Shown here in pieces: positions 43,779-49,111 of a DNA stretch of 64,000 bases. The stretch is from contig CAMCVK010000002.1 in NCBI GenBank assembly GCA_945881865.1, forward strand, positions 310,001 to 374,000, written 5' to 3'. The notes beneath the pieces are model-generated. The model was not told the origin of the DNA. It did no database searches and saw only the letters and a program-made list of their open reading frames with translations. The stretch's first letter is position 1. Each line of letters begins with the position of its first letter. The stretch comes from Fimbriimonas ginsengisoli Gsoil 348. Its GTDB lineage: Bacteria; Armatimonadota; Fimbriimonadia; Fimbriimonadales; Fimbriimonadaceae. Both the position numbers and the translations under genes were made by a program.

Positions 43779-45008
43779 ATGCCGATTCTCCCGCCCGCCG
43801 ACGAATTTCGGCGCGTCGCTACCGCCCTCGATAAGTTGCAGACCTACCAGGTCTCGGTGTCGGTCGCGACCGTGGCCAAGAACAAAAAGTTTCGCGGCGA
43901 GTTCGACTATGCGATGGTGTCGGCCGAGAAGCAGGAGCTGCGCGTACGGCTTCCACGACAGAACGGCCTGGATCGCATCGACCGCGCCTTTCGGTTTGTT
44001 TCAAACCAGGTAACGGGCTACGACGTCCTGGCGAACGAGGTTCTCCAAACTCGCTACGCAAAAACCGCCTCGCCTAAGGGCCGAATCCAGCTGGCGCTTG
44101 GCGCGCTTGACGACGGACTTCGATCGGCGGTCGCACCGAAGGAATTCGCGCAAGCATTACGGAACTTCGGTAACTCGGGACGCTGGACGCAAACTAAGCC
44201 CGGCATTTTGGACGGCGTTGTTGGCGGCCGAAAGCTCCGGCTAGAACTGGCGTCGGGCGGCTTGCCAAAACGGCTCTCGATCACCAGCGGTGCCGAGCGA
44301 ACGGACTGGTCCTACCGTTTCACCGTTGCCGGCGCGGTTGTCCCGGCGGTGTCGCCGAGCGCGATGAAGGTGAAGTTCTTTGTCGATAAGCCGGCGCTCC
44401 CGGTCTTTGCCGACGCCAAATCCGAGCAGATCATTCGCAATGTGCTGAACGCACACAAGACCCTGCGGGCGACCACCATCACGATTGGCGGAACCGGCGC
44501 CGCCAAAAAGGTTTACATCGGCGCGGGCCAGAACCCGACCATCGGTGAAGACGCAGACGGGTGGCAGTGGCGGCTTCAGCCGAACGGCGCCCTTAACGTG
44601 GTTCGAAAGAGCCCGGTAAAGAGCTGGAGCGGTAAGGTCGCTCGGCTGGAGGCTCAGGGGACCCTGAAGTCGATCGGCGTTCCTGGAATATCCGGCTACA
44701 TGCGGGAATGGCTCCAGCGGCGGGTCCCGTTCCGCGACCTGCTGGATGCCTCGTTGACGGGCCGCAAGATCGGTGAGATCCAACTCGCCGGAAAGACATG
44801 CGATCTCATCTCGTTCAGCAATAAGATTCGCAGCATGACGTTCGCCGTCCAACGCTCGCCATTGCGGCTCGTGGAAATCGATTCGGAGACTCGCTATCCG
44901 GGCGGAAAGGTGCTGGACCGAGGGACAACGACATTCCGCTACGGCCCGCTTTCCGGAGAGAACCTGCCCGCCACCGGCAGCAAGGCACCCCTACCCAGCA
45001 TCAACTAG
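43779..45008 (+). CDS. Hypothetical protein of two similar halves (LolA-like pattern)
   Basis: 409 residues with no signal peptide or membrane helix. I do not recognise the family. Two halves (about 8-190 and 218-405) each start with a helix (FRRVATALDKLQTYQV and SEQIIRNVLNAHKTLR) followed by many beta strands, and end with conserved-type strands (GLPKRLSITSG and SPLRLVEIDSE). This looks like a duplicated LolA/LppX-type half-barrel, but those are usually exported. A TAGATT box lies seven bases before the ATG. Its stop shares CTAG with the convergent protease gene. Confidence 0.7.
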   Translation: MPILPPADEFRRVATALDKLQTYQVSVSVATVAKNKKFRGEFDYAMVSAEKQELRVRLPRQNGLDRIDRAFRFVSNQVTGYDVLANEVLQTRYAKTASPKGRIQLALGALDDGLRSAVAPKEFAQALRNFGNSGRWTQTKPGILDGVVGGRKLRLELASGGLPKRLSITSGAERTDWSYRFTVAGAVVPAVSPSAMKVKFFVDKPALPVFADAKSEQIIRNVLNAHKTLRATTITIGGTGAAKKVYIGAGQNPTIGEDADGWQWRLQPNGALNVVRKSPVKSWSGKVARLEAQGTLKSIGVPGISGYMREWLQRRVPFRDLLDASLTGRKIGEIQLAGKTCDLISFSNKIRSMTFAVQRSPLRLVEIDSETRYPGGKVLDRGTTTFRYGPLSGENLPATGSKAPLPSIN

Positions 45009-46240
45009 CCGTTCTTCGTCAATTCGACGGCTTTCAGAAGCGTAAGGTCCGGTTGGCCGGGGAGCCTTGGCGGGGCGTCTTCGACGAGGACGTCGGGCTT
45101 GACGCCGTTACCTTCCAGCCGGACGCCCTGGATCGTGATGTAGTCGCTGAGGGGGTACTGCAAGGAGAAGCCTTCGCCGACCGGCATGATGACGGAAACA
45201 AGCACCGCGCCGGCGCTCGGCCGACCCACGACCTTAGCGCCGAGCCTCTCCCGCAGGGCAGCCGCGCACATCTCGGAGGCGCTGCCGGAGCCACCGTTGA
45301 CCAGCACGATGACATTGCCCTTAAATACCTTTCCTTTTTCGGGGGCAAGAGGCATCAGCTTTCGCTTTTGCCACTTGGCAATCGCGACCAAATCGGTTCC
45401 ATCGAGGCCGGTCTCGGCAACGTACTTGTTGATCGTTTGCTTCCCGATGAAGGTTCCGATCGGCTCGTCGGCCGGAAGGAAGTAGCCCAGAAGATGCTGG
45501 AGGTTCACCACCGCGCCGCCGCCGTTATCACGCAGGTCCAGAATCAGGTTCTTCGAATCCATCGCCTTCGCCATGAGTTCATCCACGCGATTCGCGTCGT
45601 ACTGAAGGTCGAACGTGTAGACGGAAAGTCGCTTCGTATCTTCGGATACCGTCTCCAGAACCTCCGGTCGGCGGGTGCTAAACGGCTTACGAACGATGTT
45701 GTATTCGACCTCTTCGCCGGTGACCCGTCGGACCTTGAGGGCGACCGAGGTGCCCGCCTCGCCCGGAATGCCGGTGATGCCTTCCGGCTTCTTACCGTTA
45801 ACTTCGATGATGATGTCTCCGGCAATCAGGCCGACCTTATCCGCCGGCGCGCCGTCGACGACGCGCATGACGAGGAGGCCGTCTTTGTGCGGATAGGTGC
45901 TTACGCCGATGCCTGTGCTGGTGGCCGTGCGGCGCATCGTGACGTTGCGCGGGGACTGCAAAACGATGTGGCTGAGGCCGAACTTGCTGAGGGCACCGTT
46001 CACGGCCGAGGTGAACTCGTCGTCCGTCTTTGCCGCTTCAAGCTTCGGTTTCTCTGCGGCCAGAAAGTCGGGCCACTTCTTGAAATCGACCTTGGGAACG
46101 AAGGCGTAGTTCGTGACGATCTCGGTTACCTTGCCCAAAACTCCAGCTTTTACGGCGGGCTTGCCATCCACCGTTTGGGCCGGCGCGAAAACGGCGAAGC
46201 CCACGAGCGCGAATAAGACGGGAAGCCGGAGAAAGTGCAT
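45005..46240 (-). CDS. S41-family carboxy-terminal processing protease with PDZ domain
   Basis: 411 residues with a signal peptide (about 1-21, ends in PAQ). A PDZ domain near 115-190 contains GLLVMRVVDGAPADKVGL and GDIIIEVNGKKP. The peptidase core has LILDLRDNGGGAV near 235 and GNVIVLVNGGSGSASEM near 310, whose second Ser is the nucleophile, with Lys in RLGAKVVGRPSAGA near 335. Such proteases act outside the cytoplasmic membrane on misfolded or C-terminal substrates. It is the last gene of the run that includes two ClpS paralogs. Confidence 0.93.
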   Translation of the reverse strand: MHFLRLPVLFALVGFAVFAPAQTVDGKPAVKAGVLGKVTEIVTNYAFVPKVDFKKWPDFLAAEKPKLEAAKTDDEFTSAVNGALSKFGLSHIVLQSPRNVTMRRTATSTGIGVSTYPHKDGLLVMRVVDGAPADKVGLIAGDIIIEVNGKKPEGITGIPGEAGTSVALKVRRVTGEEVEYNIVRKPFSTRRPEVLETVSEDTKRLSVYTFDLQYDANRVDELMAKAMDSKNLILDLRDNGGGAVVNLQHLLGYFLPADEPIGTFIGKQTINKYVAETGLDGTDLVAIAKWQKRKLMPLAPEKGKVFKGNVIVLVNGGSGSASEMCAAALRERLGAKVVGRPSAGAVLVSVIMPVGEGFSLQYPLSDYITIQGVRLEGNGVKPDVLVEDAPPRLPGQPDLTLLKAVELTKNG

Positions 46241-46283: not shown

Positions 46284-46589
46284 TCACTCTTCGGTCACGG
46301 TGACCTGGATGCCGATCCGCCGGATGATCACGGCGGCTTCCTCGCAGACCGACTTGGATCCGTGGTGCACGACGGATTTCCCCAGGTTGTCGACCTCCCA
46401 AGTTTCCATTTCCGCTTCCTCCGGCGGGCAATTCGTGGCCTCCATCAGGATCTTGTAGACCTGATGGTACGTGTTGAAGTCGTTATCGTAGACGGTGACG
46501 ACAAAAGTCTCCCCGCCGGTGCCGTTATCTTCATCAACGCGGTCTAGCAGACCGGGCGCGGAACTGATGGGCGAGTAGTTCGGCATCAA
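46284..46589 (-). CDS. ClpS-domain protein 1 (key His replaced)
   Basis: 101 residues. The core TFVVTVYDNDFNTYHQVYKI and, after a gap, AEMETWEVDNLGKSVV follows the ClpS fold, which hands N-degron substrates to ClpAP. The ND motif is kept, but where ClpS has the conserved VHxxG, this protein has VDNLG, losing the His that recognises the N-terminal amino group. The Met-rich and acidic N-terminal 20 residues are non-conserved. The ATG overlaps the stop of the second ClpS gene by four bases. It may serve another substrate class. Confidence 0.88.
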   Translation of the reverse strand: MMPNYSPISSAPGLLDRVDEDNGTGGETFVVTVYDNDFNTYHQVYKILMEATNCPPEEAEMETWEVDNLGKSVVHHGSKSVCEEAAVIIRRIGIQVTVTEE

Positions 46590-46873
46590 TCGATAAACTC
46601 GGGTTCGACGGTGGTTTTGACGCCGCCGCTCGCGATGATGCCGGCCGCTTTTTCACACTCGGAAATGGTGGAAAAATGCACCGGAGCCTTGCCGAAGTGG
46701 TGGGCTTCCCACATTTCCAAGTAGGCCTCGTCCGCGTCGCAGCCGGTGGCCGTCATGAGGAGGTCCACCACGATTTCCATTGGGGTGGTGTCGTTGTTGT
46801 AGATGACGACCATCCACCGCTTCCCACCGGTGATGGCATCGTCAATCGATGGTTCGAGAACGATCTGTGCCAT
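46586..46873 (-). CDS. ClpS-domain protein 2
   Basis: 95 residues. WMVVIYNNDTTPMEIVVDLL and EAYLEMWEAHHFGKAPV match the ClpS core. The conserved His of VHxxG is retained as AHHFG, and the NND motif is present. It precedes ClpS 1 and would bind ClpA or ClpC if present; neither is in the window. No usable ribosome site is seen before its ATG except the AT-rich TATTTG stretch. Two ClpS domains as separate, overlapping genes are unusual. Confidence 0.9.
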   Translation of the reverse strand: MAQIVLEPSIDDAITGGKRWMVVIYNNDTTPMEIVVDLLMTATGCDADEAYLEMWEAHHFGKAPVHFSTISECEKAAGIIASGGVKTTVEPEFID

Positions 46874-46914: not shown

Positions 46915-49092
46915 CTATGCCTTGCGGCGGCTTTGGACCCAGCCGACCACCAAAAACGCCAGCAAGATGAGCGCCGCTCCGGCAAAAAGCTGCATGCCAC
47001 GCGCAAATCCCGGCGGTTCGTAGACAAACCGAACCTGGTGCTTTCCGTCGGGCACTTCGACCTCGCGCCAGAGCGGGCCTTTGATCGGCAGCGGCGTTCC
47101 GTCTTCTAGCGTCGCCGTCCAACCGGGCATGTAGCGGTCTTTCACGAGCAGGGGCCCACCGCCTTCGGTCTCGATGACGAGCTCGTCCAGGTCCTCGCGG
47201 GCGATGGTCGCCGTCCCAGGAAATTCCAACCGGGTGCCACCGATCACCGTCTTGTTGATGACCCCTTGGTCGGTGGTCCACATCTCGGCAACCCCCGCTT
47301 CGGCCAGCCGCTCCGGAACCGCTGACGGCTTGATGAACATCATGTTGCCGTTGGCCGGAGGCGCCGAATCCTGCCCGTTGATTTCGTTGAGCATCGCGAC
47401 CGTGTCTCGGTGGAGCAAGGAGTCGTAGCCGCCAAGGTCGTGGATGCGGGAGTAGCTGGCGGTGTTGGGAGGAAGCGTCGCCGGGACGGCAGCACTCAGG
47501 CCCCAGTTGGCGTTGATGACCGCGATTCGCTCGTTTATCGGGCCCTCGACTTTCGGCAACGGGGGCCCCATCAGGACGAGTGGGAGGTTGAGAACTCCCA
47601 ACAACACGGCCACAATGCCGACCGCCAGGTACGCCGCTTTGAATCCGCGCAGATACAGGACGCCACCCATCACCACGATCGCGACTAGTAGCGCCAGCGG
47701 CTGGCCAAAACCAGCGGCAAACGGCAGGCTCTCGGCGCCCTGCGGCAGCGTCGCCGACAATGCCAAGCTGCCAAGCCCAAGCGGCACGATTGCGAGCAGG
47801 AACCAAAGCGGCGAGGACTTGGCTTCTTTAAATCTCTCGAACCCGAGCCCGGCGATGACGCAGGCCACGAGCAAAAAGAGCACGATGACGCGCCCCGGCG
47901 AACCGGTGGAAGACCAGCCGGGCACGTTGAAGTACAGAAGGGCATTGAGCGGGGTGCCAAACGCCAGCAGCAACGCAAACCCGCCGATGGCGGCCAGCAC
48001 CCAAGCTCGGCGATCTCGCCAAGGGGCCATAACTAGGAGGACGAACGCGATCGGACCGATGCAAAGCGCAGCCTCGGCGAAGTTTGCGCCTTGCTTGGCC
48101 AACGGCGGCCAGTAAGAGGAAATTCCCGGAACGCGGTCACTTTCCACCCGGGGATTTCCAGTTTGGTACGGATTCACCAGGTTGCTGAGTTCAAACGGCT
48201 TGAGCGCAGATCCGAGATAGGCCTGATAGCCCTCGCCGGTGGGAACATTACGGCGGTGCGAAAACTGGCTGAACTCGAGCACTGGGAGCAACTGCGGCGC
48301 CGCAATGCACGCGCCAAAGCCAAGCCCGACAACTGCCGACGCCAGACCAAGCGGCAAGGCTTTGCCTCGTGCGAACACGGCTTCGCCGATCAGCCAAACC
48401 ACGGCGGCCATCAGCCCGTACGCAACGAACTGGAGGTGACCGGCAAGGATCATCATCCCCGCGCAAAAGGCGACCGAGCCGACGGCCACAAACGGGGACA
48501 GCTCCTTGTCACGGTCCAGCGAGCGAAATGCGCCCGAGATGGCGGCCAACAGCCACGGGATCCACGCAACGGTGGTTCCGACCGAAGCGAGCGGCGCCCA
48601 GGCGTACAGGAACGGCAGCGTGGCCGCCAGCAAGCCGGCCAGATTTGCCCCTTCCTCTTTGCCGCCGCAGGCCAAGACCAAGCGCCGAACCCCGAGCCCA
48701 AAGAGAGCAAGATTGAACCAGGCCAACAGGACCACCGCGACCGGCGGAGGAATCTGGAGAAGCCCCGCCAAGATATGAAGCGGATACAGCGCACCCGACT
48801 GGGAGTTCGCCATAAGCGGCGTCCCGGCAAGCTGGTACGGATTCCAAAACGGGCGGTCGCCGGAGCTCCAAGCGGTGAGAACGAGGTCGCGCCACATTCC
48901 AAACTGCAGGACTCCGTCAACCGGAAGAACATCCCAGGGCGTGGCCGGCTTTGCCTGGTTCCAAGGCGGCATCTGGGCGATCTGGTCGGTTGGACCCAAC
49001 GTCATGCCTTGAAAAACGCGGGCAAACGGAAGAAATGCCAGCAAGACGATGGCAAGGAGGGGAAGCAGTCGGGCCATCGGCGGAATCTTCAT
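46915..49092 (-). CDS. YfhO-family multi-pass membrane protein
   Basis: About 725 residues from ATG 49092; GTG six bases upstream also possible. About twelve to fourteen membrane helices span the protein. The N-terminal helix LLPLLAIVLLAFLPFARVF is followed by a loop with DGVLQFGMWRDLVL and then PFWNPYQLAGTPLMANSQSG, the conserved YfhO/GT-C-like first loop. The last 130 residues form an extracytoplasmic domain ending LLVKDRYMPGWTATLEDG, a known YfhO end pattern, before a final helix. YfhO proteins resemble lipid-linked sugar glycosyltransferases. A TPR protein gene precedes it by about 20 bases. Confidence 0.9.
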   Translation of the reverse strand: MKIPPMARLLPLLAIVLLAFLPFARVFQGMTLGPTDQIAQMPPWNQAKPATPWDVLPVDGVLQFGMWRDLVLTAWSSGDRPFWNPYQLAGTPLMANSQSGALYPLHILAGLLQIPPPVAVVLLAWFNLALFGLGVRRLVLACGGKEEGANLAGLLAATLPFLYAWAPLASVGTTVAWIPWLLAAISGAFRSLDRDKELSPFVAVGSVAFCAGMMILAGHLQFVAYGLMAAVVWLIGEAVFARGKALPLGLASAVVGLGFGACIAAPQLLPVLEFSQFSHRRNVPTGEGYQAYLGSALKPFELSNLVNPYQTGNPRVESDRVPGISSYWPPLAKQGANFAEAALCIGPIAFVLLVMAPWRDRRAWVLAAIGGFALLLAFGTPLNALLYFNVPGWSSTGSPGRVIVLFLLVACVIAGLGFERFKEAKSSPLWFLLAIVPLGLGSLALSATLPQGAESLPFAAGFGQPLALLVAIVVMGGVLYLRGFKAAYLAVGIVAVLLGVLNLPLVLMGPPLPKVEGPINERIAVINANWGLSAAVPATLPPNTASYSRIHDLGGYDSLLHRDTVAMLNEINGQDSAPPANGNMMFIKPSAVPERLAEAGVAEMWTTDQGVINKTVIGGTRLEFPGTATIAREDLDELVIETEGGGPLLVKDRYMPGWTATLEDGTPLPIKGPLWREVEVPDGKHQVRFVYEPPGFARGMQLFAGAALILLAFLVVGWVQSRRKA

Positions 49093-49111
49093 CGGCACCG
49101 ATTGCGCTGCG

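Follow-up and report, generated by a model that had tools for sequence, protein, structure and literature searches.

A tandem pair of ClpS-type proteins in Armatimonadota and the Asp/His alternative at pocket position 66

ClpS grips the alpha-amino group of its target with a set of residues that includes His66. At the entrance of the ClpS pocket, the available text of a review places N34, D35, T38, M40, and the pocket His (printed as H65 and then as H66), and it assigns the roles of E. coli D35 and T38 to the oxygen atoms of their amide bonds (PMC8346999). The same text equates D263 of human UBR1 with H66 of ClpS and describes the domain as a reader of type 2 N-degrons. In the UBR1 PDB chain, the aligned Asp is residue 264 by count, one above the D263 of the review. 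The N-domains of UBR1 and UBR2 both carry Tyr40, Asp66, Cys81, and Ala84 in the ClpS numbering. In addition, an S. pombe Ubr11 D251N/H254Y double mutant loses type 2 recognition, according to the available part of PMC4447728; judging by their spacing, D251 and H254 look like positions 35 and 38.

Among bacteria, ClpS1 of Leptospira interrogans (LIC11356) binds ClpA and inhibits the degradation of ssrA substrates (available text of PMC12493166, in which the term UBR does not occur). Cyanobacteria have two ClpS proteins, ClpS1 and ClpS2, both of which associate with ClpC but prefer different N termini (PMC7966870, in the part available). The ClpS of Mycolicibacterium smegmatis (9ayn, 9ayo, and 9b1p) combines D34, N38, and H66, and its structures were determined in the presence of Phe-Ala and Trp-Ser, as stated in their titles. 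Asp at site 66 is already known from UBR1 and Leptospira ClpS1, and paired ClpS proteins are known from cyanobacteria. In searches of the open-licence PMC literature, we found no account of a tandem pair, of a coupling among positions 34, 40, and 66, or of ClpS in the class of Armatimonadota studied here.

An overlapping pair of ClpS-domain genes

Within the window, the whole 64,000-nucleotide stretch of Fimbriimonas ginsengisoli Gsoil 348 DNA that was analyzed, two open reading frames on the minus strand encode ClpS-domain proteins, in agreement with the original prediction of two overlapping genes. The upstream gene, A (copy 1; positions 46586 to 46873), encodes 95 amino acids and the downstream gene, B (copy 2; 46284 to 46586), 100 amino acids when read from its ATG; both assignments draw on Pfam, AF2, and Foldseek. 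The sequence places the stop codon of A (46588 to 46586) and the ATG of B (46586 to 46584) in a minus-strand TGATG (46584 to 46588) with one base in common. The start listed for B, at 46589, is an upstream TTG. The one-base overlap would be fit for coupled translation.

Both proteins exceed the cutoff of 23 bits of the Pfam ClpS model (PF02617), with 49.8 bits for A and 42.8 for B, and they are the sole ClpS matches above cutoff in the 3.2-Mb genome. The NCBIfam ClpS equivalog cutoffs (86 to 160 for the models listed) are missed by both, the best scores being 29.9 bits for A and 18.9 for B. AF2 models, for which the input alignments comprised the two window proteins and 22 related loci, adopt the ClpS fold with a mean pLDDT of 84.7 (A) and 76.5 (B), the model of B being moderate (pTM of 0.56). 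When each model was submitted to Foldseek, 38 PDB chains were retrieved at an E value of ≤0.001, all of them ClpS or ClpS-complex entries.

At the pocket, the two proteins differ. In E. coli ClpS numbering, with which that of B coincides, A reads N34-N35-T38-M40-H66 and B reads D34-N35-N38-Y40-D66, with WEAHHFGKA and WEVDNLGKS as the motifs around site 66. A codon check on the minus strand located the His of A, its residue 58 at the place of E. coli His66, at 46700 to 46702. In B, it located Asp66 (GAC) at 46389 to 46391, Tyr40, in the place of the gatekeeper Met40, at 46467 to 46469, and Asp34, in the place of the alpha-amino-binding Asn34, at 46485 to 46487. The expected His in one paralog and Asp in the other are thus both present. 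The ND segment said to be kept in the two proteins does not survive alignment: in place of the canonical N34-D35, A has N34-N35, and B has D34-N35. Of the alpha-amino-binding residues N34 and H66, A has both and B neither. Among the ClpA-contact residues, E82 is kept in both proteins and K84 is replaced by Ala in both; the place of Lys84 is occupied by Val or Ala in most relatives.

The pair shares with canonical ClpS (E. coli and Caulobacter; PF02617) the fold, the Pfam model, an N-terminal extension (about 17 residues in A and 25 in B by alignment), and, in A, the pocket His and Met. It differs from canonical ClpS in that A and B lack D35 and Lys84, carry Cys81 for Ala81, and fall below the equivalog cutoffs, that B lacks His66 and Met40, and that no ClpA gene was found in the genome. 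Leptospira ClpS1 resembles B in having Asp62 for the His, Tyr36 for Met40, and Val80 for Lys84 and in being the second ClpS of its genome. Unlike B, it is not adjacent to its ClpS2, it has His34 at position 38, and its tested partner is ClpA (PMC12493166, available text). The comparison with the cyanobacterial proteins covers their published number, ClpC association, and N-terminal preference. M. smegmatis ClpS, the best Foldseek match of B, shares Asp34 and Asn38 with it, as read from the alignment, and departs from it in His66, Met40, and Asp35.

Further candidate components of an N-degron route are encoded in the same genome. Aat, the leucyl/phenylalanyl transferase, is present (TIGR00667, 186.1 bits; cutoff, 143.55), as is ClpP. 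The only Clp_N proteins are an 833-amino-acid protein with two Clp_N repeats and an 863-amino-acid frame, and no ClpA is visible among them. The best NCBIfam score of the 833-amino-acid protein is to ClpB (1,029 bits; cutoff, 1,232), with a lower one to ClpA (804 bits; cutoff, 993), all below cutoff. We take this protein to be of the ClpC type from its N terminus and the 863-amino-acid frame to be presumably ClpB. Across the class, Aat occurs in 85 of 113 genomes. It is found in 75 of the 83 with at least two ClpS matches and missing in 8, these last eight having been placed by elimination; it is also found in 1 of 18 genomes of family f3 and absent from both genomes that keep only copy 1. This distribution fits an Aat-fed N-degron route, yet it is clustered by family. 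A branch with Bpt/ATE is ruled out, as none of the 113 genomes of the class has an ATE_C match.

The neighborhood had been described as an S41 protease and TPR genes. An S41/PDZ peptidase of the C-terminal-processing type (45005 to 46240, minus strand) does adjoin B and a TPR gene lies nearby, but the immediate upstream neighbor of A is a YfhO-like membrane protein of 727 amino acids (46915 to 49098, minus strand; Pfam YfhO E value of 0.71, below cutoff). In loci of relatives, which span at most about 6 kb and in some cases end at a contig edge, 56 of 71 have a homolog of this protein on the upstream side of the pair (55 on the same strand). It is thus found near the pair far more often than the S41 peptidase (downstream in 20 loci) or the TPR gene (17 loci), and neither of the latter finds support as a fixed partner.

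Distribution of the pair and the residues at positions 66, 40, and 34

A ClpS match at an E value of ≤0.01 was found in 100 of the 113 genomes of the class. Families f1, f2, and f4, all of one order of Armatimonadota, together comprise 94 of these genomes, and at least two matches are present in 83 of the 94. Family f3 has a single match in 11 of 18 genomes and none in 7, and the class search at this threshold gave no match in the lone f5 genome. Pair loci were examined from 76 of the 94 genomes. In 71 of these, both copies lie on one strand, with the copy 2 core starting 50 to 293 nt (median, 67) past the copy 1 stop. The remaining five loci are those of G033, where the contig ends; G040, whose pair lies elsewhere (L187); G014, with copy 2 alone; and G067 and G068, two 1.5-Mb genomes of one genus with copy 1 alone. 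Besides its tandem pair, G040 carries a third, diverged ClpS-like gene at a different place on the contig that bears the pair (L059 and L187).

Phylum-wide, 161 of 291 genomes have a ClpS match. A copy 2-like protein, defined by Trp63 and Asn38, was found in 20 of 62 further loci from other families, as a rule one per genome and without an adjacent ClpS. One genome of another family, G202, has two such proteins on different contigs (L161 and L162), one with Asp66 and the other with His66 in a copy 1-looking WEAHH motif. These are perhaps an unlinked version of the pair, and the tandem duplication may, given this genome, be older than the class. In family f3, genome G108 (L004/L111) encodes a canonical, proteobacterial-looking ClpS (109.6 bits) together with the Aat that other f3 genomes lack. 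Its grouping with proteobacterial ClpS in the tree suggests a gain by lateral transfer. Seven further ClpS proteins of the phylum (L155, L160, L174, L176, L188, L189, and L191) have Cys at position 35, at the pocket mouth and often as Cys-x-Cys (NCDCH); these are possibly metal or redox linked. A contig scan with narrow patterns returned 23 loci, and all those with a named taxon (all but two) belong to Armatimonadota groups. By tblastn, B had no plasmid match; the UBR-type ClpS L156 matched a single plasmid sequence, weakly (Miltoncostaea), and no phage.

Among the copy 2 proteins of the 71 paired loci, 54 have Asp and 17 have His at site 66, with no other residue. In copy 1, it is His in 62, Asp in 3, Glu in 3, Gln in 2, and Gly in 1. 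The 20 copy 2-like proteins of other families have Asp in 6 cases and His in 14, and the nine ClpS proteins outside the phylum (8 proteobacterial plus Miltoncostaea) all have His. Asp66 is thus more than an isolated variant but falls short of a universal feature, the site permitting two states. The original prediction had proposed conservation of the Asp in relatives as a check, and its presence in 54 of 71 copy 2 proteins also rules out a lone variant or a sequencing error. B is not a pseudogene either; all 623 copy 2 pairs with 0.1 < dS < 1.5 show a codon-aligned dN/dS below 1 (highest, 0.875). Five close pairs give 0.02, 0.03, 0.03, 0.08, and 0.30, the values of distant pairs being near saturation and meaning little. 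Asn35 and Asn38 are each present in all 71 copy 2 proteins, and Asn35 in 60 of 71 copy 1 proteins. The copy 1 protein of one locus (L102, genome G003) has lost its pocket residues (Q34, T35, V38, L40, and G66) and is a natural example of a lost ClpS pocket; its copy 2 keeps its own.

Positions 40 and 34 are the copy 2 columns best associated with site 66. Tyr40 goes with Asp66 in 46 of 46 proteins, whereas Phe40 goes with His66 in 7 of 8, and Phe, Val, or Ile at 40 in 13 of 14; Trp40 is mixed (4 Asp66 and 3 His66), and the other 4 of the 71 have Asp, His, or Glu at this position. Asn34 accompanies Asp66 in 43 of 45 proteins. Asp34 accompanies His66 in 15 of 26 and Asp66 in 11, and B of the window is of this D34-D66 kind. 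The associations were evaluated with an in-house Pagel-type likelihood-ratio (LR) test. The tree for it was built from 72 concatenated pairs, that of the window included, after exclusion of columns 34, 36, 40, and 66. LR values were 49.3 for 66-40 and 22.6 for 66-34, while 107 control columns of both copies reached at most 18.3. On a tree of copy 2 only (94 rows, ten pocket columns excluded), they were 70.9 and 27.6, against at most 21.3 for 52 controls.

Both trees are short and poorly resolved. The best trees imply 11 (pair) and 19 (copy 2) changes at site 66, with 3 and 2 independent contrasts, respectively, on supported branches, and independent-pair sign tests on both trees had too few supported branches for significance to be within reach. 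Should copy 2 have been exchanged laterally, fewer of these changes could be independent. A universal Tyr40-Asp66 rule is ruled out, since Tyr40 goes with His66 in 14 of 14 copy 1 proteins. Among 42 other ClpS proteins of the phylum, 9 have Asp66, with Tyr40 in 3, Phe40 in 5, and Val40 in 1. The copy 1 pattern and these mixed cases show that the coupling depends on the rest of the pocket.

Similarity to the UBR1/UBR2 N-domains

The Asp66 and Tyr40 pair of the UBR1/UBR2 type is present in B and in 46 of 71 copy 2 sequences. Copy 2 further resembles these N-domains in Val43, Cys81, and Ala84, and they are its best PDB sequence matches. It differs in that Asp35 and His38 of the UBR segment NDExH are each replaced by Asn, in B as in all 71 copy 2 proteins, and in that B stands alone instead of forming a domain of a ubiquitin ligase.

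In a phmmer search of the PDB up to an E value of 1, B matched only UBR2 (2e-4) and UBR1 (0.013) and no bacterial ClpS, whereas A found bacterial ClpS. A profile of 63 copy 2 sequences placed UBR2 and UBR1 on top (about 1e-7), followed by Plasmodium ClpS (0.013), and E. coli ClpS was absent up to an E value of 1. The profile of 61 copy 1 sequences also put UBR1 and UBR2 first (1.9e-8 and 5.4e-7), with E. coli ClpS at 7e-4, and that of 10 f3 single copies preferred Plasmodium and E. coli ClpS. Sequence by sequence, a two-sequence UBR profile outscores E. coli ClpS for 71 of 71 copy 2 proteins, 64 of 71 copy 1 proteins, 11 of 16 single-copy proteins, and 47 of 64 others; A of the window scores lower with UBR (13.8 bits versus 28.5 for E. 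coli ClpS). The UBR likeness therefore extends beyond copy 2 to the group as a whole, although relative to E. coli ClpS it is most pronounced in copy 2.

All 142 paired proteins carry Cys81, and all nine outside ClpS proteins lack it. The sample beyond Armatimonadota consists of the 8 proteobacterial sequences, Miltoncostaea, and PDB chains, and the Cys81 type may extend past the phylum. Of the bacterial sequences in our set, L156, an Armatimonadota ClpS of genome G171 (FNDEEHTFDDV...ANTVDSEG...GDLEHCERVA), comes closest to the UBR N-domains, with 54.1 bits against the two-sequence UBR profile. In a 56-row tree, Cys81-type ClpS and UBR form one group (100/99) with UBR beside L156 (97/95) on a long branch. 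In the AU test, two alternatives withstand rejection: a grouping of UBR with canonical ClpS (P = 0.167) and a placement of UBR outside the bacterial Cys81 group (P = 0.438). We take the UBR likeness of Cys81-type ClpS to be real; common descent of the two is supported by a tree, not proven.

In the same tree, copy 1 forms one clade (100/99) inside a Trp63 group (100/100), to which copy 2 and the copy 2 relatives from other families belong as well. This result comes from 7 copy 1 and 14 copy 2-type rows, and a larger quick tree agrees, with the order of splits inside the group poorly fixed. Because the copy 1 clade is nested in the group that holds copy 2, the His copy is not simply the intact ancestor. 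It seems to be a duplicate of a copy 2-type protein, and A of the window seems to have come to look canonical (NNDTTPME).

Possible roles of the two copies

We lean toward the reading that A and B, which are probably produced jointly, act as a pair of ClpS-type N-recognins for one ClpC-ClpP machine and that Asp66 marks an alternative pocket rather than decay. Each would bind a free alpha-amino group and a bulky first residue and hand the protein to ClpC. A would do so with the classical His66 mouth, and B with an alternative mouth, such as UBR1/UBR2 N-domains have, in which Tyr40 and Asp66 are joined by Asn34 or Asp34. Jointly, they could read a wider or split set of N termini, for example, Phe or Leu added by Aat versus Ile, Val, or other neo-N-termini. 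Two adaptors with two pocket chemistries are favored over lost recognition by the restriction of site 66 to Asp and His, its covariation with 40 and 34, and the Asp in UBR1 and Leptospira ClpS1. The original prediction of one N-degron adaptor and one with altered or lost recognition accordingly finds support as to different pockets; the loss it also allowed is unsupported, as site 66 is only Asp or His in 71 proteins and covaries with the pocket mouth, and the Asp recurs in UBR1 and Leptospira ClpS1 (PMC8346999 and PMC12493166, available texts).

What speaks most against the predicted binding of N-degrons by B is the presence of Asn35 and Asn38, in view of the Ubr11 double mutant (PMC4447728, available part), whose altered residues are probably equivalent. 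It is also an argument for B as a ClpC regulator without N-terminal recognition, which would dock on the ClpC N-domain and compete with A or block other substrates, or would read an internal degron. Leptospira ClpS1, with its Asp and Tyr, lends this a precedent, in that it binds ClpA and inhibits ssrA-substrate degradation (PMC12493166, available text). The Asn objection is weakened, however, by the Asn35 of most copy 1 proteins, by the M. smegmatis Asn38 solved with two N-terminal ligands, and by the amide-bond roles of D35 and T38 (PMC8346999, available text). A dead pocket would not be expected to change its mouth residues jointly beyond any control column, the L102 copy 1 protein displays what true loss looks like, and the Tyr40/Asp66 pair recurs in UBR1/UBR2; we consider the regulator unlikely. 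Further points against two N-recognins are the replaced Lys84, the lack of generality of the Tyr40-Asp66 coupling, the UBR likeness shared by copy 1, the 8 of 83 genomes without Aat, the poor resolution of the trees, and the moderate quality of the model of B.

The one-base overlap in the window, the close spacing in the 71 loci, and the co-conservation of both copies would also suit an obligate A-B heterodimer that uses one or both pockets, with Asp or His66 of B tuning a shared site. The loci with copy 1 alone (two of 76) or copy 2 alone (one), and the copy 2-type ClpS without a neighboring partner in other families, make this improbable. Near-neutral drift at a tolerant position of redundant paralogs would account for the frequent changes at site 66 on both trees and for the occurrence of both states among close relatives. 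We hold it to be quite improbable, since only two residues are used in 71 copy 2 proteins and their association with positions 40 and 34 exceeds that with any of the control columns.

Returning to the two N-recognins, a broader proposal is tentative and, in our judgment, doubtful: Cys81-type ClpS would have two interchangeable N-degron pocket chemistries, Tyr40/Asp66 would correspond in bacteria to the eukaryotic UBR1/UBR2 type 2 pocket and perhaps have given rise to it, and duplication of one such protein in this order would have produced the tandem pair, which would split N-terminal recognition for ClpC between a His66 and an Asp66 mouth. If true, a repeatedly used natural Asp66/Tyr40 alternative that matches UBR1/UBR2 would change the annotation of ClpS paralogs. 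It would also provide small bacterial domains for residue-by-residue study and swapping of a UBR-type pocket, as well as a testable lead on the origin of the eukaryotic N-domain.
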